Positions 2,146 to 32,787 of a stretch of 34,617 nt of DNA are shown one piece after another. Both the position numbers and the translations under genes were made by a program. The stretch lies in the IMG/VR virus record IMGVR_UViG_3300035126_000270, positions 1 to 34,617 of that record. One strand, 5' to 3'. The notes beneath the pieces are model-generated. The model did no database searches. It saw only the letters and a program-made list of their open reading frames with translations, and had not been told where the DNA came from. Origin of the DNA: a virus. How positions within the stretch are numbered: the stretch's first letter is position 1; each line of letters opens with the position of its first letter.

Positions 2146-2201
2146 GGTGATCTCCTCGAGTGCTTCGCCGATCTCGGCAACGCGCCTGCGTCGGCGGGAG
2201 C

Positions 2202-2231: not shown

Positions 2232-2241
2232 TGCAGGATCG

Positions 2242-2278: not shown

Positions 2279-2293
2279 GTGCAGGAGCGGGGC

Positions 2294-2299
2294 TACGCT
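2294..2299 (+). promoter_or_regulatory. -10-like box TACGCT, 8 nt before a GTG start (leaderless type)
   Basis: TACGCT lies eight bases before the GTG at 2308, so transcription from it would begin at or next to the start codon. No Shine-Dalgarno sequence lies at normal spacing before the GTG. No convincing -35 hexamer is visible. The same arrangement recurs at five other gene starts in this window. Confidence 0.4.
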
Positions 2300-2307
2300 G
2301 CGGCCGA

Positions 2308-9164: not shown

Positions 9165-9613
9165 TGTCAATTCGCAGGGCGACCGTCGATGACCTGGACG
9201 CAATCGTTGACATGGGCCAGCGGTTCATCGCCTTCGGCCCGCACGGCAAGTACGTGACGGCCGACCGTGAGCAGCTCCGCGCCGGCGTGGCTGCGTTCCT
9301 GCAGGTCGGCGCGTGGTTCCTCGCCGAGATCGACGGCAGGACGGTGGGGATGCTTGCCTGCGCGGTCGCGCCGATGTGGTTCGCGCCGCACATCCTGGTC
9401 GCGCACGAACTGGCGTGGTGGGTTGACGAGGAGGCCCGCGGCTCGAGCGCGGCGATCCGGTTGGTGCGCGCATACGAGGAGTGGGCGCACGAGCAAGGCG
9501 CGCACGTGGTCGCGATGTCGCAACTCGTCGCGGAGAACGGGGAGCAGGTTGGTAGGATGCTGCGAAAGCTCGGGTACGAGCCGAGCGAGATGACCTACGT
9601 AAAGGGAGGCTAG
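9164..9613 (+). CDS. GNAT-family N-acetyltransferase
   Basis: A 149-residue protein beginning IRRATVDDLDAIVDM, a classic GNAT start. The core strand region ILVAHELAWWVDEEARG (about 88-104) contains the acetyl-CoA-binding-type beta4 strand and loop, followed by SSAAIRLVRAYEEWA and the C-terminal MLRKLGYEPSEMTYVKGG. The family transfers an acetyl group from acetyl-CoA to an amine; the phage substrate is unknown. It is inserted between terminase and portal genes with a TGATG junction, so it is expressed late. Phages quite often carry such an enzyme here, possibly to modify a host or virion protein. Confidence 0.88.
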   Translation: MSIRRATVDDLDAIVDMGQRFIAFGPHGKYVTADREQLRAGVAAFLQVGAWFLAEIDGRTVGMLACAVAPMWFAPHILVAHELAWWVDEEARGSSAAIRLVRAYEEWAHEQGAHVVAMSQLVAENGEQVGRMLRKLGYEPSEMTYVKGG

Positions 9614-15637: not shown

Positions 15638-18229
15638 ATGGCAAGCACCCGCTCATACTTCCGTTCCTTCGCGGGCGGCGAGATATCGCCGGAGATGTTC
15701 GGCCGAATTGATGACGCCAAGTTCCAGACGGGGGCGGCCAAGCTGCGGAACTTCATCGCGATGCCGCAGGGGCCGGCCGAGAACCGACCGGGCTTGGCGT
15801 TCGTCCGCGAGGTGAAGGACAGCACCAAGAAGGTGCGCCTGCTGCCGTTCACGTACAGCACGACGCAGACGATGGTGATCGAGCTTGGCGCCGGGTACAT
15901 CCGGTTCCACACGCAGGGAGCAACGCTGCTGTCCGGTGGCTCGCCATACGAGATCGCGAACCCGTATGCCGAGGCCGACCTGTTCGACATCCACTACGTG
16001 CAGTCGGCCGACGTGCTGACGCTCGTCCACCCGAACTACGCGCCACGCGAGCTGCGCCGGCTCGGAGCGACGAGCTGGACGCTGACGTCGATCACGTTCG
16101 GAGCGGACATCGACACGCCGGGTGCGCCGACCGTCACGCCGACCAAGAGCGTCGGCGCGAACATCACCGGAATCAACGTCGGCACTGGTCACATCACCGT
16201 CAGCGCGGATGTCAAGGACGTCATAATTTCAGCAGGCGACACCATCTACATCAGCGGAATCACATGGACTACGCCACCCACGGGCGGCGAACTGCTGAAC
16301 AACAAGTTCTGGATCATCGACAAGTTCCACGGCTCTGGCGGAAACGTGTTCTCCGTCCTGTCCGTGCAGAACGCGCTGGCCCCGACGCTCACCGGCGGCG
16401 TGTACGGAAGCGGCGGAATCATCCAGCCGATGACGCAGACCGCTGATCTCACGAACTACTACGTCATCACGGCCATCCCTGCGAACGGCGTTGACGAGAC
16501 ACCGCCGTCTAGCGCAGGCAACGCGACGAACAATCTGGCGATGAACGGCGCGTACAACACAATTACCTGGTCGGCCGTGTCTGACGCCGTTCGCTACAAC
16601 GTCTACAAGCGGCAGAGCGGGCTTTACGGGTACATCGGCCAGACCGAGACAACCTCGTTCGTGGACAACAACATCGCTCCCGACATGGGGATCTCTCCAC
16701 CGACCGTTGACACGGTGTTCTCGAGCAGCGGCAACTACCCCGGCGCGGTGTCGTACTTCGAGCAGCGCCGCATCTTCGCCGGCACGACGAATGCCCCGCA
16801 GACGCTGTGGATGACGCGAACCGGGACCGAGTCTGACATGTCGTACCACATCCCGCTGCAGGACACCGACCGGGTGAACTTCCGGGTCGCTGCGCGGGAG
16901 GCGAACACGATCCGGCACATCGTCCCGCTCACGCAGCTCCTGCTGCTCACCAGCGGAGCGGAATGGCGCGTGTCCCCGGTCAACAGCGACGTTATCACCC
17001 CGACCACGATCTCCGTCCGTCCGCAGTCGTACATCGGCGCAAGCAACGTCCAGCCGTCCATTGTCAACAACACGGTGGTCTACTGCTCGGCCCGCGGCGG
17101 CCACGTGCGCGAACTCGGGTACTCCTGGCAGGCAAGCGGGTTCGTGACGGGCGACCTATCGCTGCGCGCATCGCACCTGTTCGACAACTACGACATCAGC
17201 GACATGTGCTACAGCAAGTCGCCGCAGCCTCTGCTGTGGTTCGTGTCATCGACGGGATACCTGCTCGGCCTGACGTACATCCCGGAGCAGCAGATCGGTG
17301 CATGGCACTGGCACGACACGGACGGCACGTTCGAGTCATGCACGGCCGTGGCTGAGGGTACGGAGGATCGCCTGTACGTCGTTGTCAAGCGCACCATCGG
17401 CGGCGTGACGAAGCGGTACGTGGAGCGCATGGCGAGCCGGCAGATCGGCGACCTCGAGGACTGCTTCTTCGTGGACAGCGGGCTGACCTACGACGGCACG
17501 AACACCGGAGCCACGACCGTGACGGTGACAGGAGGAACGAGCTGGGGTCCGAGCGACGTCCTGACCATCACCTCGTCCTCACCGATCTTCGCGTTTCCTG
17601 CGACGTCGGATGTCGGCGACGTCATAGTCCTCACGTCATCGGCAGGCACCAAGTACCGGCTGACCGTCCTTTCGACAACATCGACCACGGCGGCGACCGC
17701 CAAGGCAGACAAGGTCATCGAGGTTCCTCTGCGAAACAGTCCCGTGACGGCATGGTCCTGGGCAAGGGATTCCATATCCGGCTTGGATCACATCGAGGGC
17801 AAGACGGTCAGCATCCTCGGCGATGGTGCCGTGCTTCCGCAGGCGACGGTGAGCGGAGGGTCAGTCACGCTCCAGCGCGCATGCTCGGTTGTGCATGTCG
17901 GTCTGCCATACGAGAGTGACCTGCAGACGCTTCCGATCACCATGAACGTGGATGGCTACGGGCAGGGCCGCTTCAAGAACGTCAACAAGGCGTGGCTGCG
18001 CGTGTTCAAGTCGAGCGGCATCTTCGTTGGGCCGACCGAGGACAAGCTGGTCGAGGTCAAGCAGCGAACGACCGAGCCGTATGGCTCGCCTCCCGGCCTG
18101 AAGTCCGACGAGGTTGACGTTGATCTCACGCCTTCGTGGAAGGCGAGCGGGCAGGTGTATGTCCGTCAGGCCGACCCACTTCCGCTCACCATCGTTGGCA
18201 TGACCCTCGAGGTCGTGCTGGGAGGCTGA
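15638..18229 (+). CDS. Tail nozzle/tail tubular protein B-like (863 aa)
   Basis: An 863-residue protein starting three bases after the adaptor stop. The N-terminal segment FRSFAGGEISPEMFGRIDDA then AKLRNFIAMPQGPAENRPG is typical of podovirus nozzle (gp12-like) proteins. Residues about 170-230 resemble a small E1_FCCH-type beta domain (GTGHITVSADVKDVIISAGD then TIYISGI), and about 310-345 a fibronectin-like strand set (VRYNVYKRQSGLYGYIGQTE). The C-terminal half returns to nozzle-like sequence. It would form the distal tail tube and carry the spikes. The inserted beta domains are likely surface decorations. Confidence 0.9.
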   Translation: MASTRSYFRSFAGGEISPEMFGRIDDAKFQTGAAKLRNFIAMPQGPAENRPGLAFVREVKDSTKKVRLLPFTYSTTQTMVIELGAGYIRFHTQGATLLSGGSPYEIANPYAEADLFDIHYVQSADVLTLVHPNYAPRELRRLGATSWTLTSITFGADIDTPGAPTVTPTKSVGANITGINVGTGHITVSADVKDVIISAGDTIYISGITWTTPPTGGELLNNKFWIIDKFHGSGGNVFSVLSVQNALAPTLTGGVYGSGGIIQPMTQTADLTNYYVITAIPANGVDETPPSSAGNATNNLAMNGAYNTITWSAVSDAVRYNVYKRQSGLYGYIGQTETTSFVDNNIAPDMGISPPTVDTVFSSSGNYPGAVSYFEQRRIFAGTTNAPQTLWMTRTGTESDMSYHIPLQDTDRVNFRVAAREANTIRHIVPLTQLLLLTSGAEWRVSPVNSDVITPTTISVRPQSYIGASNVQPSIVNNTVVYCSARGGHVRELGYSWQASGFVTGDLSLRASHLFDNYDISDMCYSKSPQPLLWFVSSTGYLLGLTYIPEQQIGAWHWHDTDGTFESCTAVAEGTEDRLYVVVKRTIGGVTKRYVERMASRQIGDLEDCFFVDSGLTYDGTNTGATTVTVTGGTSWGPSDVLTITSSSPIFAFPATSDVGDVIVLTSSAGTKYRLTVLSTTSTTAATAKADKVIEVPLRNSPVTAWSWARDSISGLDHIEGKTVSILGDGAVLPQATVSGGSVTLQRACSVVHVGLPYESDLQTLPITMNVDGYGQGRFKNVNKAWLRVFKSSGIFVGPTEDKLVEVKQRTTEPYGSPPGLKSDEVDVDLTPSWKASGQVYVRQADPLPLTIVGMTLEVVLGG

Positions 18230-18230
18230 C

Positions 18231-18926
18231 ATGTCAGTATTCGCGACGGCATCGACAATACCGCTCCAGACGTCGCCGACGTATGCGTCCACGCTCCTGA
18301 CCGGCCAGCAGCCGCAGATGGCGACGTCGGGTTTCGCGGAGGGGATGCTCGCGCTCGGCCCAATCGTGTCGATCTTCGGCGCGGTGAACAGCGCCATTGG
18401 CGGCTATTACACGGCACAGAACCAGAAGAACCAGCTCGCCATGCAGGCGCAGAACCAGCGGTTCGCGGCGCAGATGGCCCGTGTCAACCAGCGCGGCGCA
18501 GCCTTCACGGCCGGCCAGATCGGGCTGCAGGGGCAGCGCCAGATCGGGCGGTACACGATGGGCGCGGGCCAGCAGCGTGCAAGCGCCCGCGCAGCACTCG
18601 CCGGCCGCGGCGCCGTCCTGGGGCAGGGAACCGCCGCCGAGGTCGTGGGAAGCATGGACGTCATCAAGGAGATCGACATGCTCTCCATGAGCGCGGCGAC
18701 CGTGCGGGCGCAGGAGGCCGCCAAGCTGCAGGCGTTCAACATCGGGACGCAGGCGCTGATGGGCGATCTGTCCGCTGCCAACCTGCAGGCCAGCGCAGGC
18801 ACGATCTACCCGGGCCTCGCGCTCGGGACGAGTCTGCTCGGGAGCGCAGCCGACATCGGCAGCACGTGGGCGCGCAACCGCCGCATCGAGGAACTGCTCG
18901 CCGGCGTGTCAACCCAGAGGACTTGA
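18231..18926 (+). CDS. Internal virion / ejection protein (T7 gp14-like position)
   Basis: 231 residues, with GGGAGG (18220-18225) before the ATG. A hydrophobic Gly/Ala segment (MLALGPIVSIFGAVNSAIGG, about residues 40-59) is followed by a long Gln/Ala/Arg-rich helical region (NQKNQLAMQAQNQRFAAQ) and a Gly-Ala-rich centre. Size, composition and place between nozzle and large ejection proteins fit a T7 gp14-type core protein ejected into the outer membrane. Sequence identity to a named family was not established by me. Confidence 0.82.
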   Translation: MSVFATASTIPLQTSPTYASTLLTGQQPQMATSGFAEGMLALGPIVSIFGAVNSAIGGYYTAQNQKNQLAMQAQNQRFAAQMARVNQRGAAFTAGQIGLQGQRQIGRYTMGAGQQRASARAALAGRGAVLGQGTAAEVVGSMDVIKEIDMLSMSAATVRAQEAAKLQAFNIGTQALMGDLSAANLQASAGTIYPGLALGTSLLGSAADIGSTWARNRRIEELLAGVSTQRT

Positions 18927-18929
18927 TCC

Positions 18930-20786
18930 ATGCCGACCGTACCGACAACCTTCGTGCCGCAGGTCGCACCGCCGGAAGGCGGCGACATCGGGAACTTCGT
19001 CGCCCCGGGCGTCCAGCCCATGGAGGACTTCACGGGTCGCCAGGTGGAGCGGCTAGGCCAGACGATGGTCCAGGCCGGAAACGTGGCCTTCCGGGTCGGC
19101 AGCGCGATGCAGGACGCGATTGACGAGGCGAACGCGAAGGCGGCCGACGTCCTCGGAATCCGCGGCGCCACGCCGCTGATGCAGCAGTACCTCAACACCT
19201 CTGGCCGCGATGCCGAGGCGCAGTACGAGGCCACGCTCAACGGCGTGCGTGGCGCGCTGATGGCACCTGCTGATGGGATGCCGAACAAGACCTCGAGGGC
19301 GATGTACGAGCAGGTCGCCGCCCGCAACATGGCGCAGTTCGAGGCGCAGCTCAACAGCCACCGACTGCGGCAGTCCAAGGTCTACGCGGCGACCGAGGCC
19401 GCGGCCCGCGCCGATGCCAGGTCCGACATGGCGATCATGGCCCACATGCAGCGGGACGAGATCGATCCCATGACCGGGCAGAAGATCGGGATGACCGCCT
19501 ACGAGGCGAACCTCGGCGTGGCCCTGCGCGAGGTGGAGAACGCGGCGCGACTGAACGGCATTCCCGATGACAGCGCCCAGATGGCCGCCGCACGGCAGGC
19601 CGTCTACGACAAGGTCACGCAGGGCGTCGTGGGCCAGTACCTCGAGAGCAAGGACTACGCTGGCGCCGAGGCTTTCCTCAACGACATGGCCGAGCGTCAG
19701 GCGGTCAACCCCAAGGTCCGCGATGCGATGTCAACGAGCATCGACCGGAACCGCCAGATGTCGGTGATGCAGGAGCTGACGGCCTCCATCCGTGCCGGGG
19801 GCGCTTTGACGGCCAAGAGCGACCCCAAGGCGTACCCCGAGCAGGAAGGCCCAGGGAAGGCGCCTGAGAGCCTCAGGGAGGCGCTCGAGGCAGCGGACGG
19901 GATTCAGGACGCCGAGATGCGCCGGCTCGTCCAGGGCAACTTGCGGCAGCAGTACGCGCAGGAGGACGCCATCGCCAAGGACGAATACAACACCGTCCTC
20001 GACTCGGTGGAGCAGGCGCAGGCAGCCGGACAGCAGATCGGCCCGGAAATGCTCGGGCGCCTGAAGCCGAAGGATGCCGAGCGCGTGATGCGGAACGAAA
20101 CGATCCGCACGGACGCCAGGATAGAGTACGACCTCGCCGACAACCCGGGCGTCGTGTCCGACCCGGCATGGGTTCGCCAGCACTGGTCGAAGATGTCGCT
20201 CGAGCTGCGGACGAAGATCCGCCAGATGCAGAACGCGCCCGAGAAGATCCTCGAGGCGTCATACGACACGGACATGCTGAAGAACACGCTGTACGAGGCC
20301 GGCCTCGGCGACCTGCTCGAGAAGCCCGGGGACGCGGAGAAGCAGCAGTACGTGACGCTGTCAAACAACGTCAAGTCCCAGATCGACTTCCTGCAGCGCC
20401 AGAAGGGCGGCAAGCTGACGCGCACCGAGACTCAGGACGTCATCGACCGTGCCATCATGGTGTTCGGCAAGGGCGCCGAGGAGAAGCCGTGGTGGTTCGA
20501 CCGATCTTTCGATCAGCCTCTTGCGACCATGGCGTCCGAGGATCTTGAGCGCCTGTCCGAAACCTACGTCAAGTTCCGGGGCAAGGCCATCAAGACGTCC
20601 GAGATGGAGCGCGCACAGCGCGCACTCGAGGCGGGCGGCGTGCAGAACCCGACGCTGCGCGAGATCATCAAGTACCACGAGATATCGCAGCAGAACATGG
20701 CGCCGCGAGGGACGCCGCAGCCTGTTCCCGCGGAACGGCTGGCGCCGACGCAGCGGGCGCAGCAGCGGCTGAGAAGCATGTTCTGA
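18930..20786 (+). CDS. Ejection / internal virion protein (618 aa, helical)
   Basis: A 618-residue, almost entirely alpha-helical protein rich in Ala, Glu, Gln and Met. It starts three bases after the previous stop with GAGGA upstream. The N-terminal 20 residues have the proline-rich start seen in several podovirus core proteins (VPTTFVPQVAPPEGG), followed by helices such as QVERLGQTMVQAGNVAFRVG. It lies in the place of T7 gp15-like core proteins, which line the ejection channel. No enzymatic motif is apparent. The role is inferred from size, composition and gene order. Confidence 0.8.
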   Translation: MPTVPTTFVPQVAPPEGGDIGNFVAPGVQPMEDFTGRQVERLGQTMVQAGNVAFRVGSAMQDAIDEANAKAADVLGIRGATPLMQQYLNTSGRDAEAQYEATLNGVRGALMAPADGMPNKTSRAMYEQVAARNMAQFEAQLNSHRLRQSKVYAATEAAARADARSDMAIMAHMQRDEIDPMTGQKIGMTAYEANLGVALREVENAARLNGIPDDSAQMAAARQAVYDKVTQGVVGQYLESKDYAGAEAFLNDMAERQAVNPKVRDAMSTSIDRNRQMSVMQELTASIRAGGALTAKSDPKAYPEQEGPGKAPESLREALEAADGIQDAEMRRLVQGNLRQQYAQEDAIAKDEYNTVLDSVEQAQAAGQQIGPEMLGRLKPKDAERVMRNETIRTDARIEYDLADNPGVVSDPAWVRQHWSKMSLELRTKIRQMQNAPEKILEASYDTDMLKNTLYEAGLGDLLEKPGDAEKQQYVTLSNNVKSQIDFLQRQKGGKLTRTETQDVIDRAIMVFGKGAEEKPWWFDRSFDQPLATMASEDLERLSETYVKFRGKAIKTSEMERAQRALEAGGVQNPTLREIIKYHEISQQNMAPRGTPQPVPAERLAPTQRAQQRLRSMF

Positions 20787-20822
20787 TCGATTCGGAAGCA
20801 AGCAACGCGCAGGAGCGACACA

Positions 20823-23800
20823 TTGATCGAGCAGGACATCAACGAGCGCATGGCCGGAATCGCACCCTCGCAGAACGTGGGTGAAGATCCGGCGATCCTC
20901 GCCATCAAGCGCAACCGCGGGATGCTTCTCCCCACGGAGAACCAGGCGCCGATGTCCGACGTCGCCCAGCCGACCGTTGAACTTCCGCAGGAACCCGACT
21001 ATGCGGCCCGAGCCATCCTTGAGGATCGCCGGAACCGGATGATGTCATCGGTCTACACGGCGTCCAAGGTGGACCCGGAGCGGGCAGCGAAGGCGCAGAA
21101 GCTCTCGGCAGAGACAGGTATCGGGAGCGGTATCGCGCTGCGGCATCTTGACGAGATGATGGTCGATGCGCGGATGCGGGAGATCGAGCGCAAGAACTAC
21201 TTCGCCGAGAACCATGTCCTCGCCAACAGCCTGTCGGACCCCGAGTTCGCGGCGGTCGCGCAGGATGACCTCGGCACGCTCGACAGGATCGGCGGGTTCT
21301 TCGGCGAGTTGGCGATGTTCAGCAGGTACGGGTTCAGCCCAAGCACGCTGAAGGGAACCGCACGCGGCATGGCGATGGTCGAGCGCGGGCAGATCGGCGC
21401 GGCGGCCGCAGCCGCTCTTGCCACGCCGCAGGACATCGACCGTGCCGAGCAGTTGCGGCAGGACATGACCAAGCTCCAGGGCGGCGGCCTGCTCGCTGCC
21501 ACGGCCGAGGTCGTGACCCAGCAGATCGCGAACCTGAAGCAGACCGCAACGATGGCCGCCGGCGGCGCAGCGGTCGGCAGTGCGGTCCCTGGCGTCGGCA
21601 CGGTTGCCGGCGGTGCGCTCGGCTTCGCGGCCGGGACGATCACCTCGACGGCGCAGATGGAGGGCGGAAACGCCTACCTCGACATGCGCGCCGATGGCGT
21701 GCCTGATGACGTCGCGATCCCCGCCGCCATCGCCATTGGCTTCCTGAACGGCGCCATTGAGGTGTACGGCCTGAAGCTCGCGGCATCGCCGTTCAAGGGT
21801 CTTGCCAAGAAGGCCATGGCCGAGGCGACTGCGGAGGCGCTTGCCAAGCCGAGCGTCCGGTCGGCGCTTGCCATCGCTGGCAAGGAATACGTCAAGCAGG
21901 TCGGCGGCGAGGGCGTCGAGGAGGCGCTGCAGCAGACCGTGTCCGTGATCGGCGACCGAATCGCCAAGGCCGCATCGGGCATGGAGTACGAGGGGTCGCT
22001 CAAGAAGGATCTCGGCCAGATCATCGAGTCGTTCGGACAGGGCGCGCTGGCGTCGGTGCTGCTCGGCGGCATCGGCCCGGGCGCGAACCTCGTCTACGAC
22101 CTGAACCGCGCCGAGGCCGCGGTCGGGACGCAGCAGTTCCTGCAGAACCTCACGACCGCCGTCAAGGAAGGCACGCTCAAGCCGCGAAGCCCCATGATGC
22201 TCGAGCGGTACATCCAGGCGCAGGCCGAGCGGTACGGGGTCGGTGACTTCTACATCGCAGGCACGGTGATGCGCGATGTCATCAATGCCAGCGGCATCAC
22301 TCCTGAGCAGCTCGAGCAGGTGCTTCCCGGCATGGGAGGGCAGGTGCGCGGCGCGCTGCTGAACAACGGCGACGTGAACCTGACTCCCGGCCAGTACGCG
22401 GCGACGATTGCCGGCACGAAGTTCGGCGATGCCCTGATGCCGCACATCCGCGTCGGCGACCCGCGTGCGGTCAGCTACGCGCAGGCGCAGCAGATCAACG
22501 CCAACCGCGAGCAGATGCGCGAGGATGCCACGAAGATCATCGGGGAGATGGAGCGGACGGACACGGCATTCGTGGAGTCGGCGCGGAACGTGGAGAACGC
22601 ATACCGCGACCAGATCGAGCGGACGGGCCGGCCGCGTGAGGAGGCAGAGGCGGCTGCCACGTTCGTGCGCGATTTCTACGTGGTCCTCGGAGCGTCCATG
22701 GGACAGACGCCTGAGCAGGTGCAGCAGCGGTTCCCGTACCGATTCGAGGGGCAGGCAGCGGCGGTCGCTGAACCGCTCGAGCAGGCGGCTCGCCAAAAAT
22801 ATCCGTCACTTGCCAAGGCGTGGGATCGTTACAACAGCGGCGAAATCTTGATGACGATTGGGGATTTGGCTGACAAAATTGACAGTTTGGATCTTGCAGG
22901 AAAGCGCATTCCGCAGTCCGTGCTTGATGCTGTGCAAGAGTTCCGTAACGCGCAACGTGAGGAACGCGAGGTTTATGGCGAACGCGGTGGAACAGAAGAT
23001 GATGCTGGAAACGCTTTGGAAATTGCAGTTCAGAACGCTGCAGAACAGCTGCGCGAAGCATCGCCCAACATCATGGAGCAGGCGGCGACGATGGACGCCG
23101 AGTACATGGCCGCCGTCGAGCGCGGCGACATGGACGCGGCGCAGCGCATGGTGGACGAGGCGGCGAAGGCGGCTGGGTACAACGTTGTCGCGTATCACGG
23201 AACGGATGCAGAGCCATTCACAATCTTTGGCGATTACGACTCTTACTATTGGGGGAAGGCATCGTATTTCTCCCCAAATCGTGAATACGCCGAAATGTAT
23301 TCATACGAAAGGACTGGCAAGGGTTTCTCACGGGTAATGAGGGTCAACTTGAAACTCGGCCGCGTGTTCTCTCCAGAAACAAATCCAGAACACCTGGCGA
23401 TGTATCGCAAATGGACGAGGGAACAGCGCAAGAGTGGAAGAGGAGGCCCGTTCTTTGTTGGCGGCCCAATGAAGGGGAAGTATGGCCCAGACAAAGTAAA
23501 AAATGTCATTGATTATGAGGATCAGTGGTGGCTTGTTGGACGCATTTGGGATGCTGGATTTGATGCATTTACGACATCAGAATCTGATGGACAAACAATC
23601 GCGTGGGGATTGAAAAATCCAAATCAAGTAAAGCTCGCCGACCCCGTCACCTACGACGAGGCCGGCAACGTCGTCCCGCTCTCGCGCCGCTTCGACATCA
23701 CCAGCCCGAGGATCTTCGAGCAGGCGGCGGTGCCGGCACAAGCGGGAGCTGATGCTCCAGGCATTGGAGTTTCCAACGAGAACAGGCTCGGATTTTGGCC

Positions 23801-26800
23801 GGCATTGCGAGTGCGAATCCAGCCTAATGCCGCACTACCTGAAAAGCCGCTGATCCTGACAGGAACGACTAACAAGAATGCGACCAAGCAACTTGCGAAT
23901 CTTGATGACATTCTTGGTCGGTTTCCAAATGCAGCAGAGTCTCCTGAAGCATGGGCGCAAATGTTGGCATATGCGTTTGGAACTGATGATGTTCCGGTTC
24001 CGCCGTATGCGTTCATCAACGACACAAACGGAAATGGGTCGTTTGATCGCCTGTCAACGCTGACGCAAGGACAGATCGCTGATGCCACGCATGGTTTCGA
24101 CAACGCCCGCGAGTTCCGCAGGGCGTACATCAACAACGAACTGGATGTAATCACCACCGGGAAACTGTTCCTGTGGTCGTTCCTGTCGCGTGGTGTCAGC
24201 CCGTACACGCAGGAATCGCTGTTCATTGATGCATTCGATGGTGCAAACGAGTGGATCAAGAAGGCTGCTTCCGGCAAGTTCACGGAAGCCGATTTCGATG
24301 ACTACACGGCGTGGGCAAAGTCAGTCGCAAAGAAGGGAAGCGGCCAGCCAGGAGCAGGGGCAACCCACAACCTGAATGCCTTCGGTAAGAACTTCCTGTT
24401 CAAGATGGGCGCAATCGGCGAGGACGGGAAGTCCAACCTTCAGCGACTGCACGACATGATGTCAGACCCGGAGCAGACGGGCCGCATGATCCGCAGGGAG
24501 TTTGCAAAGTTTGGCGAAGGCGTCGGAATTGACAACAAGGTCGTTTCGTTCACGCTGTTGGTCGCCGGGTTCAACGACGTGATGGTGCTTGACCGCGTGC
24601 AGGTTCGCCAGCTCTGGGATGACGGACGATTCAGCGGCACAAACCTGTATGACGGTGTGATGGATGCAGAAGGGCAAAAGATCGCCGGATCGTCGCTGAA
24701 TGCACTGACGGAAGGCGTTCGCGGAATCCTCGTCTATGAGGCCATTGAGCGACAGCTCGCCGCCAAAATCAATGACCTGTACGCGAAGCTTGGCCGGCCG
24801 CAGGACGCGAGCATCGGACGGTATCACTGGGAAACATGGGTCGCATACAGCCAGCAGGAAGCAGCCCACGCAACATTGGATGCCATCCTGCTTGATGCCA
24901 AGGGAGATGACCAGGCAATCTCCAAGGTGTCCGGTAAGCAAGGGGAATACGGCGCCTACGAATATGGGGCGCAATACAACCGCGACACGAATAAGACTCC
25001 GTGGTTCAGGTATACGACGCCGCTCGGCGGAACGTATGATTTCAGCGTCCCGGCGTTCAGGCAGTTCCTGGCGGAAATCAAGAAGGTTGGCAACGGCGTC
25101 GTGCCGGCCAAGTTCAAGGTAACGGAGAGTGGCAATGCCCCGTGGTACACGCGCCCAGAAGTCAACCAGCAGCGACTCGAAGAGCAGGCCGCAAAGTGGT
25201 CCGACCGAGGCGGCGGCACGGGAGAAGGAACGCGCCTTGTTCGGCAGGCTGCTGCGAACGCCGATGCCATTCGTGCAAGATCCGGCACCGGAGTTCAACC
25301 CGCAGGACGGGGTGCGGGCTTAGAGCAGGCAGCCCGAGGCCCAGCCCGAGGCTTCATCGACCCCAAGACCCTGATCGCGACGATCACGCAGGGCGGCGAC
25401 CTCGCGACCCTGATCCACGAGTCGGCGCACGCCTTCCTCGTCATCTACGGGCGAATCGCCCAGCAGCCCGACGCGCCGGCGTTCATCAAGGCAGACATGG
25501 ACACCGTGCTGCGCTGGGGCAACGTCCCGGGCGACACGCCGGAGGCGCGCCTCGCGACATGGTCGAACATGACCGTGGACGAGCAGCGCACGCTGCACGA
25601 GTCGTTTGCATACAACTTTGAGATTTATGCATGGGAAGGGAAGGCGCCGAGCGCCGAGCTGCGCGGCGTGTTCCAGCGGTTCCGCGCATACCTGACCCGG
25701 ATCTACAAGTCGATCCGCGATGACCTGAACGCCATCTACCGCCGCGAGTTCGGGACGGACCTGCCGATTCTCACCCCGGAGGTCCGGGCCGTGATGGACC
25801 GCATGCTCGCGAGCGAGCGCCAGATCAAGCAGTACCAGGCTATCAACTCCATGGCGCCCTACTTCCAGACGCAGGAGGAGGCGCAGATGGACGATGCCAC
25901 GTGGGCCGCCTACGTGGCGATGAACCAGGAGGCCGAGGACCAGGCAATCGCCGACCTGACGAAGGCGAGTCTGGGGCAGGTGGACTGGATTCGCCGTGCG
26001 CGGATCTCGGCCGAGCGCGAGGAGGAGCGCGGCATGGCCGCCCGCCGGCGCGAGGTCAAGGACGAGGCAACGCAGGAGGTGCGCGGCCGGCTCGTCTACC
26101 GCCTGCAGGACTACCTGCGGACGGGCCGCTACCGCGACGAGGCCGGGGAGGAGATCACGGTCGAGGGGCCGCACAGGCTGTCCGTGGACCGCATCGAGGC
26201 GCTGTACACGGGCATCCCCACGGCCGAGTCGGTGGAGGCCATCCGTGCCACGGGCATGGCCGTGCCGGCCGTCCTGCAGCCCGAGTGGCGCAGGCTCGGG
26301 TTCGGGAAGTCCGGGATGCTCGTCAAGGAGGGCGGCGTGGACCCCGAGATGGTCGCCGAGACCTTTGGCTATCCCGGCGGCGATGCCATGATCCGGGCGC
26401 TGGTCGATGCCCCGAAGTTCTCGGAGGCCGTGGAGGCCCGCACCAACGAGCTGATGCAGGAACGCTACGGGGAGATGGACTCGCCCGAGGCACGCGAGCA
26501 GCGGATCTCCGAGGCCATCCACAACGAGGCCCGAGCGCGGTTGGTGGCCGTGGAACTGCGGCACGTTTCCCGCGCCACGGAACCCGTGGCCGTCATGCTC
26601 GAGGCCGCCAGAATCGCCGCGCAGGACATCCTCGCCCGCAAGCGCCTGCGCGACATCCGCCCGCAGGACCACGAGGCAGCTGAGGCGCGGGCGGCACGGG
26701 ACGCCATCAACGCCCGCCGAGCCGCCGGCAACCCGGCCGCCGCTGCCCAGGCCGCCTACACGCGGGCCAAGAACGCCGTCCTGGAGGCGCCCCGCGAGGA

Positions 26801-29393
26801 CACGGTCGAGGCGCTGCTCGCGGCCACGGATGCCGCTGAGGTCGCCGGAGAGGCCGCACGGGCCGAATCCATGGCACGGTCAGCCGAGCGCATCGGTCGC
26901 TTCGTGGAAGAGTACGGCAACGTCCAGCCAGACCTGCTGGTAATCCGCGCCAAGCGGGCGCAGCTCTACCAGAACCAGCTTGCCGCCGAGGCGCGCAAGG
27001 CGAAGGCATACGTGGAGAAGCAGGTCAAGTACCTGCGGAAGGTGCTTCGCGACGAGAACCGCAAGCGGATGGGCGCGGGGTACGCGGACCAGATTGAGGC
27101 GCTGCTCGCGAACGTCAACCTGGTCGCCATGTCGGCGGCGCAGCGGCAGCAGCTTGCCGACCTGGGTGAATGGCTGAAGAAGATGGAGGCTGACGGCGTC
27201 AAGCCCGACATCTCCGAGGATCTCGCCAAGGCAGCGTTCCGCGTCCCCTACAAGGACTTGACGCTCGACCAGTTCCGCGAGTTGGTGGAGGCCGTGCGGA
27301 CCATTGAGTACATGGGCAAGAACGAGCAGAAGGTGCTGCTCGAGAAGCAGAAGGCCGAGTTCAAGGAGAAGGAAGCGGCCATCGTCAAGAACGCGGAGGC
27401 GGTCGCACGGTCGCGTGGCCGCATCGAGAAGCTGCGCCGATCCGGCCAGACGAGGGCGGCGAAGGCGTCTGCCAAGCTGAGAGGATTCTTCGCGGCTGGG
27501 CTGAAGGCATGGGCCATCGTGGAGGTCATCGACGGCGGCCCGGGCGGCCCGCTGTGGGAGTACCTGATCCGCACGGCCAACGACCGCGCCGACATGGAAA
27601 CGGAGATGAACGCGGCGGCCACGAAGCGGCTGACCGAGATCCTCGAGCCGTGGTACAGGGTCGGCAACATGATGGCCGGCAAGGTCGAGTTCCCGTCCAT
27701 CGGTCGGTCGATGACGCGGGAGGCGCGGCTTGCCATCGCCCTGAACTACGGCAACGCCGGCAACATCCAGCGCCTGCTCGACGGCGAGGGCTGGACGCAG
27801 GAGCAGGTGCAGCCCATCCTCGAGTCGCTGACGGCCGAGGAGTGGGACGCTGTGCAGCAGGTGTGGGACTTCATGGACGAGTACCGCCCGCTGATCGCGG
27901 CCAAGGAGCGCAAGCTCTTCGGCAAGGAACCGAACTGGGTCGAGCCGCAGGAGCTGACCGTGCGGACGGTGGACGGCAAGGTAAAGACGCTGCTCGGCGG
28001 CTACTACCCCATCGTCTACGACCCGGTCGCCGCGTTCCGGTCGGAGAAGCAGAGCGAGGTTGACACGGCCGAGGCGCAGCTCAAGGGCGCGTTCACGGCC
28101 GCCACGACCAGGCGCACGTTCACGAAGGAGCGCGCCGCCAAGGTCGAGGACAGGCCGCTGCTGTACAGCCTGCAGGGACTTTGGAGCGGAGTGACGGACG
28201 TCATCCACGACCTGTCCTGGCACGAGTGGCTGATCGACGCGAACCGCCTGATGCGGAGCGAGGAGTTCGACCGGGTCGTTCGCGCCCGCTACGGCGAGCA
28301 GCCGAAGCTCGAGCTGCGCCGCTGGATCGAGGACGTCGCCGCCGGCGGTCGCGGTGCGCTGACACCCGGCATGATGGCCGCGGCATTCATGCGGCAGAAC
28401 GTGAGCGTGGCGGGACTTGGGTACTCCATCCGCGGTGCGCTCCTACAGCTCACGGGTTTCTCGATGTCAGTCACCCGGGTCGGCTGGGGTCCGCTGCTGC
28501 GCGGAATCAGCGCGTTCGCCGTCAACCCGCTCCAGACCATGCGGCGTGTCAACGACATGAGCAAGTTCATGGAGATGCGCTCGAGGACGCAGTTCAAGGA
28601 ACTGAATGAGATCCGCAACCGCGTCGAGGGCCAGCGCGGCTGGGAGCGCGGCATCCGCTCGCACGCATACACCATGATGCTGTCAATGCAGCGGCTCGTT
28701 GACATCCCGACATGGCTGGCCGGGTACGAGAACGCAATCGCAGACGGCAAGGACGAGGACACGGCAATCGCTCTCGCCGACCAGGGCGTGATCGCCACGC
28801 AGGGCAGCGGCCTCCTCAAGGATCTGTCCCGCGTCGAGCGTGAGAAGGGGCTTGCCAGCCTGTTCACCGTGTTCTACTCGTACTTCAACACGGTGTTCAA
28901 CCTCGCCACGGTGCAGACGATGACGGCCCGCAGCAGGGGCAAGGCGGCCCACGACCTGCTGATGATCCTCGTCGTGCCTGTCATGGTCGAGCAGCTCCTC
29001 AAGGAAGTCCTCACCCCGGACGGCGAGGACAAGGAGGAGAAGGATCTCGGCAAGGTCGCGGCGCAATTGACACGCGCCGAGGTTGAGTACCTGCTCGGGA
29101 TGTTCGTGTACGTGCGCGAGCTGCAGGGCGTGTCGGGCATGATTGACGGCGGCATGCGCGGATACGAGGGTCCGGCCGGCCTGCGAGGGATCGTGACGAT
29201 CCAGCGTGCCGCGCAGCAGGCAGGGCAGGGCGAGTTCGACCGCGGCTTCCGCCGCTCGGCCGTGGACCTGCTCGGCATCGGCCTGGGCCTGCCGAGCGCG
29301 CAGATCAACCGCACCATCGACGGCCTTGAGGCGCTGTCGGAGGGAGAGACTGAGAATCCGCTTTCCGCCGTGATGGGCGTTCAGCGAAGGTAG
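20823..29393 (+). CDS. Giant polyvalent ejection protein (2856 aa) with ART-, HhH-glycosylase- and zincin-like domains
   Basis: Starts at TTG 20823 with AGGAG (20811-20815) seven bases upstream; ATG 20850 is less well supported. Order of regions: helical N-terminus with a Gly/Ala hydrophobic stretch (about 221-300); helical region to about 780; an ADP-ribosyltransferase-like domain (about 786-960; VAYHGTD with His792, then YFSPNREYAEMYS and NPNQVK); a domain (about 985-1455) with a helix-hairpin-helix glycosylase-like signature, Lys1239 and Asp1257; a zincin domain with HESAH (1532-1536) and HESFAYNFEIYAWEGKAPS near 1590; long coiled coils to about 2230; and a C-terminal ejection-type region with a hydrophobic segment (LLMILVVPVMVEQLL, about 2710). 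EQAA linkers separate the middle domains, two of which lie in lower-GC DNA. It is probably packed in the virion and delivered with DNA, as T7 gp16 is; the domain activities are inferred. Confidence 0.93.
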   Translation: MIEQDINERMAGIAPSQNVGEDPAILAIKRNRGMLLPTENQAPMSDVAQPTVELPQEPDYAARAILEDRRNRMMSSVYTASKVDPERAAKAQKLSAETGIGSGIALRHLDEMMVDARMREIERKNYFAENHVLANSLSDPEFAAVAQDDLGTLDRIGGFFGELAMFSRYGFSPSTLKGTARGMAMVERGQIGAAAAAALATPQDIDRAEQLRQDMTKLQGGGLLAATAEVVTQQIANLKQTATMAAGGAAVGSAVPGVGTVAGGALGFAAGTITSTAQMEGGNAYLDMRADGVPDDVAIPAAIAIGFLNGAIEVYGLKLAASPFKGLAKKAMAEATAEALAKPSVRSALAIAGKEYVKQVGGEGVEEALQQTVSVIGDRIAKAASGMEYEGSLKKDLGQIIESFGQGALASVLLGGIGPGANLVYDLNRAEAAVGTQQFLQNLTTAVKEGTLKPRSPMMLERYIQAQAERYGVGDFYIAGTVMRDVINASGITPEQLEQVLPGMGGQVRGALLNNGDVNLTPGQYAATIAGTKFGDALMPHIRVGDPRAVSYAQAQQINANREQMREDATKIIGEMERTDTAFVESARNVENAYRDQIERTGRPREEAEAAATFVRDFYVVLGASMGQTPEQVQQRFPYRFEGQAAAVAEPLEQAARQKYPSLAKAWDRYNSGEILMTIGDLADKIDSLDLAGKRIPQSVLDAVQEFRNAQREEREVYGERGGTEDDAGNALEIAVQNAAEQLREASPNIMEQAATMDAEYMAAVERGDMDAAQRMVDEAAKAAGYNVVAYHGTDAEPFTIFGDYDSYYWGKASYFSPNREYAEMYSYERTGKGFSRVMRVNLKLGRVFSPETNPEHLAMYRKWTREQRKSGRGGPFFVGGPMKGKYGPDKVKNVIDYEDQWWLVGRIWDAGFDAFTTSESDGQTIAWGLKNPNQVKLADPVTYDEAGNVVPLSRRFDITSPRIFEQAAVPAQAGADAPGIGVSNENRLGFWPALRVRIQPNAALPEKPLILTGTTNKNATKQLANLDDILGRFPNAAESPEAWAQMLAYAFGTDDVPVPPYAFINDTNGNGSFDRLSTLTQGQIADATHGFDNAREFRRAYINNELDVITTGKLFLWSFLSRGVSPYTQESLFIDAFDGANEWIKKAASGKFTEADFDDYTAWAKSVAKKGSGQPGAGATHNLNAFGKNFLFKMGAIGEDGKSNLQRLHDMMSDPEQTGRMIRREFAKFGEGVGIDNKVVSFTLLVAGFNDVMVLDRVQVRQLWDDGRFSGTNLYDGVMDAEGQKIAGSSLNALTEGVRGILVYEAIERQLAAKINDLYAKLGRPQDASIGRYHWETWVAYSQQEAAHATLDAILLDAKGDDQAISKVSGKQGEYGAYEYGAQYNRDTNKTPWFRYTTPLGGTYDFSVPAFRQFLAEIKKVGNGVVPAKFKVTESGNAPWYTRPEVNQQRLEEQAAKWSDRGGGTGEGTRLVRQAAANADAIRARSGTGVQPAGRGAGLEQAARGPARGFIDPKTLIATITQGGDLATLIHESAHAFLVIYGRIAQQPDAPAFIKADMDTVLRWGNVPGDTPEARLATWSNMTVDEQRTLHESFAYNFEIYAWEGKAPSAELRGVFQRFRAYLTRIYKSIRDDLNAIYRREFGTDLPILTPEVRAVMDRMLASERQIKQYQAINSMAPYFQTQEEAQMDDATWAAYVAMNQEAEDQAIADLTKASLGQVDWIRRARISAEREEERGMAARRREVKDEATQEVRGRLVYRLQDYLRTGRYRDEAGEEITVEGPHRLSVDRIEALYTGIPTAESVEAIRATGMAVPAVLQPEWRRLGFGKSGMLVKEGGVDPEMVAETFGYPGGDAMIRALVDAPKFSEAVEARTNELMQERYGEMDSPEAREQRISEAIHNEARARLVAVELRHVSRATEPVAVMLEAARIAAQDILARKRLRDIRPQDHEAAEARAARDAINARRAAGNPAAAAQAAYTRAKNAVLEAPREDTVEALLAATDAAEVAGEAARAESMARSAERIGRFVEEYGNVQPDLLVIRAKRAQLYQNQLAAEARKAKAYVEKQVKYLRKVLRDENRKRMGAGYADQIEALLANVNLVAMSAAQRQQLADLGEWLKKMEADGVKPDISEDLAKAAFRVPYKDLTLDQFRELVEAVRTIEYMGKNEQKVLLEKQKAEFKEKEAAIVKNAEAVARSRGRIEKLRRSGQTRAAKASAKLRGFFAAGLKAWAIVEVIDGGPGGPLWEYLIRTANDRADMETEMNAAATKRLTEILEPWYRVGNMMAGKVEFPSIGRSMTREARLAIALNYGNAGNIQRLLDGEGWTQEQVQPILESLTAEEWDAVQQVWDFMDEYRPLIAAKERKLFGKEPNWVEPQELTVRTVDGKVKTLLGGYYPIVYDPVAAFRSEKQSEVDTAEAQLKGAFTAATTRRTFTKERAAKVEDRPLLYSLQGLWSGVTDVIHDLSWHEWLIDANRLMRSEEFDRVVRARYGEQPKLELRRWIEDVAAGGRGALTPGMMAAAFMRQNVSVAGLGYSIRGALLQLTGFSMSVTRVGWGPLLRGISAFAVNPLQTMRRVNDMSKFMEMRSRTQFKELNEIRNRVEGQRGWERGIRSHAYTMMLSMQRLVDIPTWLAGYENAIADGKDEDTAIALADQGVIATQGSGLLKDLSRVEREKGLASLFTVFYSYFNTVFNLATVQTMTARSRGKAAHDLLMILVVPVMVEQLLKEVLTPDGEDKEEKDLGKVAAQLTRAEVEYLLGMFVYVRELQGVSGMIDGGMRGYEGPAGLRGIVTIQRAAQQAGQGEFDRGFRRSAVDLLGIGLGLPSAQINRTIDGLEALSEGETENPLSAVMGVQRR
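22779..25333 (+). repeat. Five dispersed copies of a GAGCAGGCGGC linker sequence
   Basis: Within the giant gene the 11-mer GAGCAGGCGGC occurs identically at 22779-22789, 23076-23086 and 23718-23728, with one-base variants at 25182-25192 and 25323-25333. Each encodes the EQAA of a hydrophobic/charged-EQAA linker (PLEQAAR, IMEQAAT, IFEQAAV, LEEQAAK, LEQAARG) at a domain boundary. Confidence 0.7.
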
Positions 29394-29396
29394 AAT
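29391..29396 (+). promoter_or_regulatory. -10-like box TAGAAT before the tailspike gene
   Basis: TAGAAT matches five of six -10 bases and overlaps the stop of the giant gene (TAG 29391-29393). An ATG (29405) begins eight bases after it. No clear -35 is visible. It could give the tailspike gene a separate late message. Confidence 0.45.
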
Positions 29397-29404
29397 CACC
29401 CCCA

Positions 29405-29428
29405 ATGTCGAGGGAGCCGAAGAGATGA
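29405..29428 (+). CDS. Possible 7-codon leader peptide overlapping the tailspike start
   Basis: ATG at 29405 opens a seven-codon frame (MSREPKR) whose TGA overlaps the tailspike ATG (ATGA, 29425-29428). It starts eight bases after the TAGAAT box. Such an arrangement could couple a leaderless start to tailspike translation. The frame is too short to judge by sequence alone, so confidence is low. Confidence 0.25.
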   Translation: MSREPKR

Positions 29429-31995
29429 CGATTTCCAGCACGACCAGAATCGCAGGCCCGTACACGAGTGGATCGTCGTTCGCGTTTGCGTTCAAGGTGT
29501 TCGCTGCGGCCGATCTAGACGTCGTTCGCTTCGACTCATCGACGGGCGTCGAGTCCGTTCTTTTTCTCACGACCGACTACACGGTTTCGCTGAATGGCGA
29601 TCAGAACTCGAATCCGGGCGGAACGGTGACGCTGGTCGCCGGCGCGCTGACTGCAACGCAGACGCTGACAATCACCTCGAGCATCGCGAACCTGCAGCCG
29701 ACCGACCTGACGAACCAAGGCGGCTTCTACCCGGAGGTCATCACGGACAGCCTTGACCGTGCGACCATCCAGATCCAGCAGATCAGCGACATCGGCGACC
29801 GCACCGTCAAGATCCCGATCTCGGACGGCATCGGACTTGACATGACGCTTCCGACAGCGTCGGCTCGGCAAGGCAAGTACCTGATCTTCGACGCCAGCGG
29901 ACAGCCGAGCGTTTCAAGCGGAACAGGCACGGACACGGCGCTCCGCACGGATCTCGCCGTCAACACGTTCGCTTCCGCCGGCGCAGGACTCGTCGGGTTC
30001 CGTCAGTCCGGTGCGAGCGCGACTGGACGTACCGTCCTGTCCAAGTTGCGCGACTCCGTCAGCGTCAAGGACTTCGGTGCCGCTGGCGACGGCGTAACGA
30101 ATGACGTCGCGGCCGTGCAGGCGGCAGTGAACGTCGGCGGGACCATCTACTTCCCTCCCGGTACGTATGTCATCGACAGCACGATCACGGTCGGGTCGAA
30201 TACCAACATCCTGCTCGATGACGATGCGGTGATTGACATGTCATCGACAGCTTCCGGGTCGCCGTCCACTGCTTTCTACGCGGCCGGGACGATGGGTACC
30301 TGGTACAGCCTGACGGCGAATGCGGTCGTTGGTGCGACCACCCTGACCGTATCGACTGCGAACAGCCTGTTCTTCGCCGCCGGCGATTGGGTGCAGGTTT
30401 CTTCCTCGACCGTGTACGACACCGGATGGACGGATGCACCCATCGCGGAGATCGCGCAGGTCGCATCGGTGAACACCGGAACCGGCGTCATCACGCTCCG
30501 CACTCCGCTGGTCGGTGGGGCATACAACACGGCGCAGTCAGCGCAGGTCCGCAAGGTCACGTTCGTTGAGAACGTGATCGTTGAGGGCGGTCAGTTCCTC
30601 GGTCCATCGCTCGCGACGAACCTGCAGACCGCGGTTCGGTTCGACCAAGCCATAAATAGCCGAATCCACCGCATCCGTGCGCGGTACTTCAACGGCAACA
30701 CGATTCGGCTCACGAGCTGCCTCTTCTGCGTCATCGATGATGTGTACGTCGAGGATGCCTTGGCAACGACCACGGGATACGGCGTCAACATCGTTGACTG
30801 CTGCCAGGACTGCATCGTCGCGAACAGCTCGTTCCTGCGCTGCCGGCATGCTGTGACGAACACCAAGGCGACTGGAAGCGTCGGCATCAACCGCCGCATC
30901 ACGTACTCGAACTGCAGGTCGTTCGGGACGATCAACACCGGGGATGCATTCGACACGCACGCGAACGCCGAAGGCATCCTCTTCTCGAACTGCATGTCTG
31001 TTGGTTCTGCCGCAAGCGGGTTTAACCTCGAGTGCGGGTCCGGGCAGGTCATCGGATGCACCGTGACGTCGCCGGCAACCAACGGCATCACGCTTGCGAC
31101 CCACACGACGATCACGGAGAACGAGTTCATTGTCGATGGGTCAAGCACCTTCGGCGGATCGACCGGGCTTTCCATCGCATCCGGCAGCACGCAGAACAGC
31201 ACCGACACGCTGCTGATCCGCGTAAGCAACAGCTCGTTCCGCGATGCCTCGAGCAGCGGAATCGAGATCAATCCAGCTGCGACGAGGTTCATCAGCAACG
31301 TGAGCGTCGATGGCTGCTACGTTTCAGGCGCATCAACAAGCGGAGCATTCTACATCGATACCGATGTCAGGCGCTTCGTCGTGAGCGACTGCAACATCGT
31401 GCAGACCACGGCTGTCGCAGGCAGCATTCTGCAGTGCCGAGGCACCTACGGCGTCATCAACGGAAACGTTGTCCAGTACGGCGTCAACGGCGCGAATGGA
31501 ACAAGCAGCAGCGCCTGCATCAGGATCACGGATGCGTCGAACGTGACGGTGTCGAACAACGTGGCACGAATGCCATCGCCAGCAGGCGGCTGGGGCATCC
31601 GCATCACAGGAACGACGTCGAACGTGGTGATCGGCAACGGCAACAACATGCTGGACTGCACGGTCACAGGCATCTCGTATGTCCAGGGAACGCAGTATCC
31701 AGCCCTAGTGATCGCTTCAGGCGTCGTGACGCTTCCGCACGGCGGCAATGGCGTGTACATCATCGATACCGAGGGTGGTGCCGGAACGGATGATCTTGAC
31801 ACCATCAACGGCGGAATCCTTGGACAGCAGATCACCATCGGCCAGACGGCAAGCACCAAGGACATCGTCGTGAAGGACAACACCGGGAACCTTCGTTTAG
31901 CAGGTGATTTCACGATGAATAACCTGCAGGACAACATCACGCTTTACTACAACGGCGGCGATTGGGTCGAAATCGCACGCGCCGACATCGCATAA
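29425..31995 (+). CDS. Tailspike with T7-fibre-type N-terminus and pectate-lyase-like beta helix
   Basis: 856 residues. Residues 1 to about 140 match the T7 tail fibre N-terminal attachment domain pattern: SSTTRIAGPYTSGSSFAFAF, FLTTDYTVSLNGDQNSNPGG, GGFYPEVITDSLDRATIQIQ. From about 211, SVKDFGAAGDGVTNDVAAVQ followed by IYFPPGTYVI opens a pectate-lyase-3-type right-handed beta helix, continuing with repeated N/S/G-rich rungs to about 760. The C-terminus is a small beta domain. The N-terminal part docks on the tail; the helix probably binds and may cleave a host surface polysaccharide. Catalytic residues cannot be identified by eye. It is preceded by a possible promoter and mini-ORF. Confidence 0.92.
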   Translation: MTISSTTRIAGPYTSGSSFAFAFKVFAAADLDVVRFDSSTGVESVLFLTTDYTVSLNGDQNSNPGGTVTLVAGALTATQTLTITSSIANLQPTDLTNQGGFYPEVITDSLDRATIQIQQISDIGDRTVKIPISDGIGLDMTLPTASARQGKYLIFDASGQPSVSSGTGTDTALRTDLAVNTFASAGAGLVGFRQSGASATGRTVLSKLRDSVSVKDFGAAGDGVTNDVAAVQAAVNVGGTIYFPPGTYVIDSTITVGSNTNILLDDDAVIDMSSTASGSPSTAFYAAGTMGTWYSLTANAVVGATTLTVSTANSLFFAAGDWVQVSSSTVYDTGWTDAPIAEIAQVASVNTGTGVITLRTPLVGGAYNTAQSAQVRKVTFVENVIVEGGQFLGPSLATNLQTAVRFDQAINSRIHRIRARYFNGNTIRLTSCLFCVIDDVYVEDALATTTGYGVNIVDCCQDCIVANSSFLRCRHAVTNTKATGSVGINRRITYSNCRSFGTINTGDAFDTHANAEGILFSNCMSVGSAASGFNLECGSGQVIGCTVTSPATNGITLATHTTITENEFIVDGSSTFGGSTGLSIASGSTQNSTDTLLIRVSNSSFRDASSSGIEINPAATRFISNVSVDGCYVSGASTSGAFYIDTDVRRFVVSDCNIVQTTAVAGSILQCRGTYGVINGNVVQYGVNGANGTSSSACIRITDASNVTVSNNVARMPSPAGGWGIRITGTTSNVVIGNGNNMLDCTVTGISYVQGTQYPALVIASGVVTLPHGGNGVYIIDTEGGAGTDDLDTINGGILGQQITIGQTASTKDIVVKDNTGNLRLAGDFTMNNLQDNITLYYNGGDWVEIARADIA

Positions 31996-31998
31996 GAG

Positions 31999-32223
31999 AT
32001 GACCATGCAGCACCACGACGAACTCTTCCTCGCCATCGGTCGCCTCGAGGGGAAGATCGACTCGATCCTCGCCCAGCAGTCGCGGCAGAACGACGAGATC
32101 AAGTCGCACGACGAGCGCATTCGTCACCTCGAGCAGTCGAAGAGCCACATCCTGGGATACGCGGCCGCCGCCGGCGGCATCCTAGGGCTGGTCGCCAACT
32201 ACGTCATCAAGGCATTCGCCTAA
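31999..32223 (+). CDS. Holin-like protein with coiled coil and C-terminal membrane segment (74 aa)
   Basis: 74 residues; ATG at 31999 or 32005. Residues about 5-48 form an amphipathic coiled coil (LFLAIGRLEGKIDSILAQQS then RIRHLEQ), and about 51-70 a hydrophobic segment (ILGYAAAAGGILGLVANYVI) ending in a short basic tail. This build is that of XhlA-like or small single-span holin/holin-accessory proteins. Its place after the tailspike fits the start of a lysis cassette, but no endolysin is visible in the window, so the lysis role is inferred. Confidence 0.72.
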   Translation: MTMQHHDELFLAIGRLEGKIDSILAQQSRQNDEIKSHDERIRHLEQSKSHILGYAAAAGGILGLVANYVIKAFA

Positions 32224-32232
32224 AGGAACACC

Positions 32233-32775
32233 ATGCCTACCGACATCGTCATCGCCACCGACAAGCCGGAGTACCGAACCAGCGGACTCGTCACCGCCTC
32301 GAGCGGAACCTACGACGCCGCCGTCCCGACCGCCACGATCCCGTCCACGACCGGGCAGACGTTCCTGGTGCCGACGAACCTCGGCGACAAGCCGAGCCTG
32401 CTGCGGATCGTCCCGTTCCACAGCGCCAACAACGCGACCACGCCGAGCGTGCGCGTGATCGGCTGGTCAACCTACACGCAGACGAGCGGCACCCCGGTGT
32501 ACGTCCCGACGCTGCTGTGCGACCTGGCGTGCGCGTACAACGGCACCTCCGGCAGCATCCCGAACCTGACGGTGAACGGCACGGCGCAGTACTTCTTCCA
32601 CGCGATCACCGCTGCGACCGGCGTTCCCACCGTGAACCTGTACAGCCCCGGCACGGCCGCCGCAATTGGCACCCCGCCTGCCGGCGCGTTGATTGACACG
32701 GTCGGCCTGCAGTACATCACCCTGCAGTTTGAGTCCTCGACGGGAACGATGGGCTGCTTCTACTCCTTCCTTTGA
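32233..32775 (+). CDS. Beta-rich virion-type protein (180 aa), function unknown
   Basis: Start ATG 32233 with AAAGGAA upstream. The protein is rich in Thr, Ser, Gly, Val and Pro, with few charges, as in beta-structured virion components. It contains TIPSTTGQTFLVPTNLGD and a C-terminal AGALIDTVGLQYITLQFESS. No domain is recognised and no signal peptide is present. It lies between a holin-like gene and a spike-like gene, so it may be a tail-tip, spike-associated or decoration protein. Confidence 0.75.
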   Translation: MPTDIVIATDKPEYRTSGLVTASSGTYDAAVPTATIPSTTGQTFLVPTNLGDKPSLLRIVPFHSANNATTPSVRVIGWSTYTQTSGTPVYVPTLLCDLACAYNGTSGSIPNLTVNGTAQYFFHAITAATGVPTVNLYSPGTAAAIGTPPAGALIDTVGLQYITLQFESSTGTMGCFYSFL

Positions 32776-32787
32776 CGGGAGCGCATC

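Follow-up and report, generated by a model that had tools for sequence, protein, structure and literature searches.

A divergent HhH-GPD glycosylase-like domain in the exchangeable cassette of a giant podoviral ejection-type protein

The viral DNA analyzed here, IMG/VR record IMGVR_UViG_3300035126_000270 (positions 1 to 34,617, a stretch of 34,617 nucleotides hereafter called the window), carries a 2856-residue open reading frame (ORF; 20823..29393, on the + strand, as are all features of this protein) that begins with a TTG start behind AGGAG and encodes a giant polyvalent or ejection-type protein. We conclude that residues ~1112–1350 of this protein are probably a divergent DNA glycosylase of the helix-hairpin-helix (HhH)-GPD superfamily, nearest to its Ogg2 branch, which is carried as an exchangeable, co-injected payload domain of a giant podoviral ejection protein. 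The approximate core (24156..24872), whose boundaries were placed by a colinear profile alignment with Ogg2, sits in a larger glycosylase-like unit with N- and C-terminal extensions (residues 993–1462; 23799..25208) that was delineated from an alignment of relatives (A1), an AlphaFold2 model and Foldseek matches to Ogg2.

Motif and conservation

The original prediction had pointed to a lysine and an aspartate spaced as in the catalytic pair of endonuclease III, and the translated ORF places Lys1239 (24537..24539) and Asp1257 (24591..24593) exactly where it put them, 18 residues apart. The segment GEGVGIDNKVVSF starts at residue 1231 and DVMVLDRVQ at 1252; upstream, GKLFLWSFLSRG starts at 1113 and LNAFGKNFLFK at 1184. 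The accompanying description of the hairpin as G-V-G-x-K was right about the presence of the lysine and wrong about the literal pattern, which is absent: the sequence reads G-V-G-I-D-N-K, with the lysine four positions past the last glycine of GVG instead of two. In profile alignments G1235-I-D-N-K1239 corresponds to G-I-G-Y-K of Ogg2, and the strict endonuclease III pattern does not occur.

Scanning viral contigs for the domain yielded at least 80 relatives (79 distinct loci) with 48–97% identity; later scans gave 186 and 198 confirmed stretches, counted before the sets were limited to 80 loci, and the domain is present in roughly 190 viral contigs. The non-redundant set (alignment A1) holds 36 members with 54–85% identity to the window. 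Consistent with the role that the original prediction gave them, Lys1239 and Asp1257 are invariant in all 36 of these and, among the distinct sequences from all retrieved loci, in each of the 78 that span this region. The same holds, in both sets, for Gly1235, Asp1237, Asn1238, Arg1258, His1335 (24825..24827) and Trp1339 (24837..24839). No cultured phage in a 50,697-record collection encodes the domain, and a scan of bacterial genomes returned a single fragment that covers the C-terminal extension, with no host source found. This fragment, an ORF in a Gemmatimonadetes metagenome-assembled genome (L081:5992-7338), matches the C-terminal extension only and is fused to unrelated sequence; we take it to be either the remains of a gene or a chimeric assembly.

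Predicted fold and relationship to Ogg2

The AlphaFold2 model of residues 993–1462, computed from the 36-sequence alignment, has a predicted local distance difference test score (pLDDT) of 90.3 and a predicted template modeling (TM) score (pTM) of 0.87. In this model a helix (residues 1220–1230), a hairpin (1231–1237) and a second helix (1238–1247), of which Lys1239 is the second residue, are followed by a linker, Asp1257 and a further helix (1258–1265); the secondary structure predicted around the motif is that of the HhH-GPD layout. The helix-hairpin-helix (residues 1220–1247; 24480..24563) was also located by profile alignment with the Ogg2 structure 3fhf. When the model was compared with the PDB by Foldseek, ranks 1–5 were all Ogg2 structures (3knt, 3n0u and 3fhf), with E values of 0.018–0.057, a probability of 1.00 and target TM scores of 0.60–0.69. 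The best match was Methanocaldococcus jannaschii Ogg2 (MjOgg) with DNA (E 0.018, target TM 0.69), and Thermotoga maritima Ogg2 and apo MjOgg were also among the five. Ranks 6 and 7 were Helicobacter pylori MagIII, and MutY, endonuclease III and OGG1 followed below with weaker scores. The top seven matches are all HhH-GPD glycosylases, and the modeled fold appears to include their six-helix core. The superposition scores and the places of the two residues in the sequence speak, indirectly, for Lys1239 and Asp1257 sharing one active site. The comparison supports the original prediction of an HhH-GPD-like fold; the resemblance it drew to endonuclease III and OGG1 is borne out at the level of the superfamily, with Ogg2 as the nearest relative. 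Endonuclease III was rejected in that place, as Ogg2 ranks higher.

Sequence profiles led to the same family. When all PDB sequences were searched with the family profile, MjOgg came first (E 0.017) and its K129Q variant second (E 0.05), and the alignment paired Lys1239 with Lys129, which the variant has as Gln, and Asp1257 with Asp147, making Lys1239 the predicted catalytic, Schiff-base-forming lysine and Asp1257 the predicted catalytic aspartate. A profile was needed for this result, since a PDB search with the window domain as a single sequence returned nothing useful. An hhalign comparison with a small Ogg2 alignment was colinear across residues 1072–1343 and set His1335 against Asp194, and Trp1339 against Trp198, of MjOgg, by which His1335 is predicted to contact the base and Trp1339 to stack on it. 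The profile–profile score against Ogg2 was 36.0, a value reached by none of 100 column permutations (maximum 21.6); a further comparison with permuted controls gave z 9.2. In family databases, Pfam Ogg-HhH matched 3 of the 36 members (best E 0.0027) and the NCBIfam N-glycosylase/DNA lyase model matched 3 (E 0.014).

The profile comparison also bears on whether the domain could have an HhH-GPD fold and yet modify DNA without base excision, in the manner of phage PUGT, which loads an amino acid onto phosphomethyl-uracil. PUGT (8z2n) does appear in the Foldseek list (E 2.6), and its relatives retain a lysine in a similar hairpin. The comparison set consisted of eight proteins, the PUGT of phage PaMx11, which was identified through the PDB match, and seven relatives. 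Against these the window family scored below the permuted controls (z −1.2, vs 9.2 for Ogg2), the structural score of PUGT was far lower (target TM 0.28 vs 0.69), and the position of the aspartate varies within the PUGT family. We consider this explanation highly improbable, and identity as an amino acid:DNA transferase is disfavored by the profile comparison in particular.

Several observations weigh against the assignment to the HhH-GPD glycosylases. The hairpin departs from the canonical HhH; a relaxed pattern, G-h-G-x(1-4)-K-x17-D, is found in ~8% of shuffles of the giant protein, and K-x17-D alone is common. The alignment beneath the model is shallow (effective number of sequences, Neff, 2.3), every Foldseek E value against the PDB is above 0.001, the Ogg-HhH matches in Pfam fall under the curated family cut-off (which aids recognition and is no trait of the enzymes themselves), the window protein alone gives no Pfam match in the glycosylase-like region, and no single database match clears a strict threshold. 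Two features of Ogg2 itself are also missing. Ogg2 discriminates 8-oxoguanine (8-oxoG) from guanine by the carboxylate of its C-terminal lysine, which senses the N7-H of 8-oxoG, and has Asp194 at the base-contact position and Trp198 stacked on the base (PMC3397491); in the window the sensor lysine is absent, with the chain running more than 1500 residues past the equivalent helix, and the invariant His1335 stands in place of Asp194, the tryptophan being kept as Trp1339. Because no E value is below 0.001, the fold match counts as strong only jointly with the sequence evidence.

The weakness of the bare motif, together with the lack of any PDB match at E <0.001, would suit a chance resemblance in which an unrelated helical phage domain happens to contain K-x17-D. 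What lifts the motif above chance is its conservation together with the fold and the profile similarity: structure search, profile search and profile–profile comparison all back a single family of enzymes, and the same catalytic residues fall into register. Coincidence is to us the least probable of the explanations considered.

An exchangeable cassette

The glycosylase-like unit lies in a central cassette (residues 670–1499; 22830..25319) that differs between nearly identical phages. The DNA of one relative, L241, is 96.6–98.2% identical to the window over 18014–22682 and 25321–32978 (97–98% in the DNA flanking the cassette). Its N-terminal scaffold, corresponding to residues 1–669 (20823..22829), keeps 90% identity despite the replaced center, in which residues 670–1499 of the window give way to an unrelated stretch of 1054 residues (689–1742 of the L241 protein). 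The cassette ends directly ahead of an HExxH sequence. In every full-length relative examined, this sequence occupies the same relative place, where the shared C-terminal part begins; in the window it reads HESAH (residues 1532–1536; 25416..25430), a zincin-type metallopeptidase motif.

A scan with the C-terminal 696 residues of the giant protein found 57 loci, from which 42 full-length ORFs were classified. The window-type domain occurred in one (L276), a second family, A4, in three, and neither in the remaining 38, so that the window and L276 are the only carriers of the glycosylase-like domain among full-length relatives with the common C-terminal module. Numerous further ORFs, 629–3528 residues long and with differing surroundings, contain the domain as well. 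Among ten other architectures sampled, it follows an ART-PolyVal domain in five, and in the window it follows an ART-PolyVal-like ADP-ribosyltransferase domain (residues 785–939; 23175..23639; Pfam PF18760, E 1.6e-5, under the curated cut-off). A PBECR5 nuclease domain lies upstream in one of the ten (L079:3762-4961, another giant protein), and in L030:1875-7562 an FtsK gamma DNA-binding domain (residues 924–979, E 5.4e-14) lies directly upstream. The domain looks like an exchangeable payload of an ejection-type protein.

This distribution argues against a glycosylase relic that only binds DNA, for example for packing or translocating the genome during ejection. A location inside a large virion-type protein would fit such a relic, and HhH domains bind the DNA backbone without sequence specificity (PMC3397491). 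All predicted catalytic and base-pocket residues are nonetheless invariant, and the domain is lacking from the majority of full-length relatives built on this scaffold, so that it is dispensable for ejection. We therefore regard a mere DNA-binding relic as unlikely.

The stretch that replaces the window cassette in L241 carries a cargo domain of family A4 (L241:5555-6820), whose 37 members share an invariant lysine and aspartate that are likewise 18 residues apart. All 37 are related to Pfam DUF7178 (best E 1.6e-6). Profile similarity of A4 to the window family lay above all 60 permutations; similarity to Ogg2 was marginal, being reached by 3 of 100 permutations, and a Foldseek search of the PDB with an A4 model found no glycosylase. 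These results are only suggestive of A4 as a second glycosylase-like type. One could speculate that different base-excision enzymes are swapped in and out of the central cassette, Ogg2-like in the window and A4 (DUF7178-related) in L241, each directed at its own kind of modified base in DNA of the host or altered by it, at times together with the ADP-ribosyltransferase that often precedes it, as an injected weapon or counter-defense; we find this broader picture doubtful.

Genome setting

The gene order of the window is that of a podovirus, with a Sf6-like small terminase, large terminase, portal, major head protein, Bbp16 and tail tubular/nozzle-type proteins, followed by a weak match to an internal virion protein, an endolysin-like protein, the giant protein and the tail spikes. 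T7-type phages keep ejected internal proteins at this place in the gene order. Because its gene adjoins internal virion proteins in this order, the giant protein probably enters the cell together with the phage DNA.

The giant protein matches phrog_9880 and has an LPD22 domain at residues 78–162 (E 3.6e-11, above the cut-off). The combination of LPD, ART and peptidase-type domains in one large protein by which polyvalent proteins are recognized is represented here by LPD22, the weaker ART-PolyVal match and HESAH. Elsewhere in the window, a GNAT acetyltransferase gene (9164-9613) lies with the large terminase gene on one side and the portal gene on the other, and a calcineurin-like phosphoesterase, a PHROG 'DNA repair exonuclease', is encoded at 1912-3219.

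Proposed mechanism and significance

In the mechanism that we propose, the giant protein would enter the cell along with the phage DNA, and the neighboring zincin may free the payload domains, a release step proposed for polyvalent proteins (PMC5512222). The glycosylase-like domain would then bind DNA through its hairpin and flip a base, with His1335 and Trp1339 lining the pocket that receives it. Asp1257 would remove the base with the participation of Lys1239, which may also act as a lyase and cleave the DNA backbone where the base is missing. The substrate would be a damaged or modified base other than 8-oxoG.

As to purpose, the domain might repair the incoming DNA of the phage itself, for example at oxidized purines, as other phage-borne repair glycosylases do. 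The closest family is an 8-oxoG glycosylase, and delivery with the DNA would place such an enzyme early. A free C-terminal lysine carboxylate, the 8-oxoG sensor, is impossible mid-chain, and swapping of the cassette between near-identical phages is unusual for a need common to all; we see repair as possible rather than likely. Because near-identical phages swap the cassette, a role in early-infection conflict over modified or host-altered DNA, rather than in general housekeeping repair, seems most likely.

Glycosylases are repair enzymes and, as recently recognized, also bacterial defenses against modified phage DNA. If our reading is correct, an exchangeable glycosylase that phages deliver together with their genome would be the reverse of such a defense, and a function would be given to a domain that roughly 190 viral contigs carry without annotation. 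The predicted function is directly testable through its four invariant residues, Lys, Asp, His and Trp.

Comparison with known systems

The closest known enzymes, the Ogg2 proteins (M. jannaschii 3fhf/3knt, T. maritima 3n0u; Pfam PF22175), share with the window domain the HhH-GPD core, the Lys/Asp spacing of 18, the base-stacking tryptophan and colinear helices. The window domain differs in being embedded, with large N- and C-terminal extensions, in a 2856-residue protein, in its GVGIDNK hairpin, and in having four residues past the lysine a Phe, as in AGOG, where Ogg2 has His. With the sensor carboxylate absent and Asp194 changed to His, these sequence features suggest that the substrate is probably a base other than 8-oxoG. 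The window domain is not a true Ogg2; its assignment to the superfamily is good. PUGT-type amino acid:DNA transferases (8z2n) have a distantly similar fold and a hairpin lysine, but a profile similarity to the window family that does not rise above shuffled controls.

The giant protein as a whole resembles the polyvalent proteins of phages and conjugative elements (Iyer et al. 2017, PMC5512222) in its giant multidomain build, its LPD22, ART-PolyVal-like and zincin-type motifs and its predicted injection; glycosylases go unmentioned in that survey's main text. The anti-phage glycosylases Brig1 and Brig3 (PMC11078745, PMC13160076), as the window domain would, turn base excision into a weapon in the conflict of phage and bacterium, but they belong to the uracil-DNA-glycosylase superfamily, are encoded by the bacterium and are directed at the phage. 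Gp35 of Streptomyces phage Sf3 (PMC5336643) is a phage HhH-GPD protein of the same superfamily as the window domain, differing in that it stands alone as a separate 280-residue protein outside any ejected polypeptide.

As a separate observation, two genomes of the same phylum as L081 encode an Ogg-HhH glycosylase beside proteins that, by reading of their sequences only, are tRNA-guanine-transglycosylase-like, QueC-like and TIR-like. The row (L159:824-3089 and L160:357-3323) looks like an uncharacterized defense island; PADLOC gave no match for the glycosylase.

No description of a glycosylase in an ejected phage protein was found in the literature searched. Stand-alone phage HhH-GPD proteins and bacterial anti-phage glycosylases of another superfamily were already known; what the window adds is a glycosylase-like domain within an ejection-type protein.

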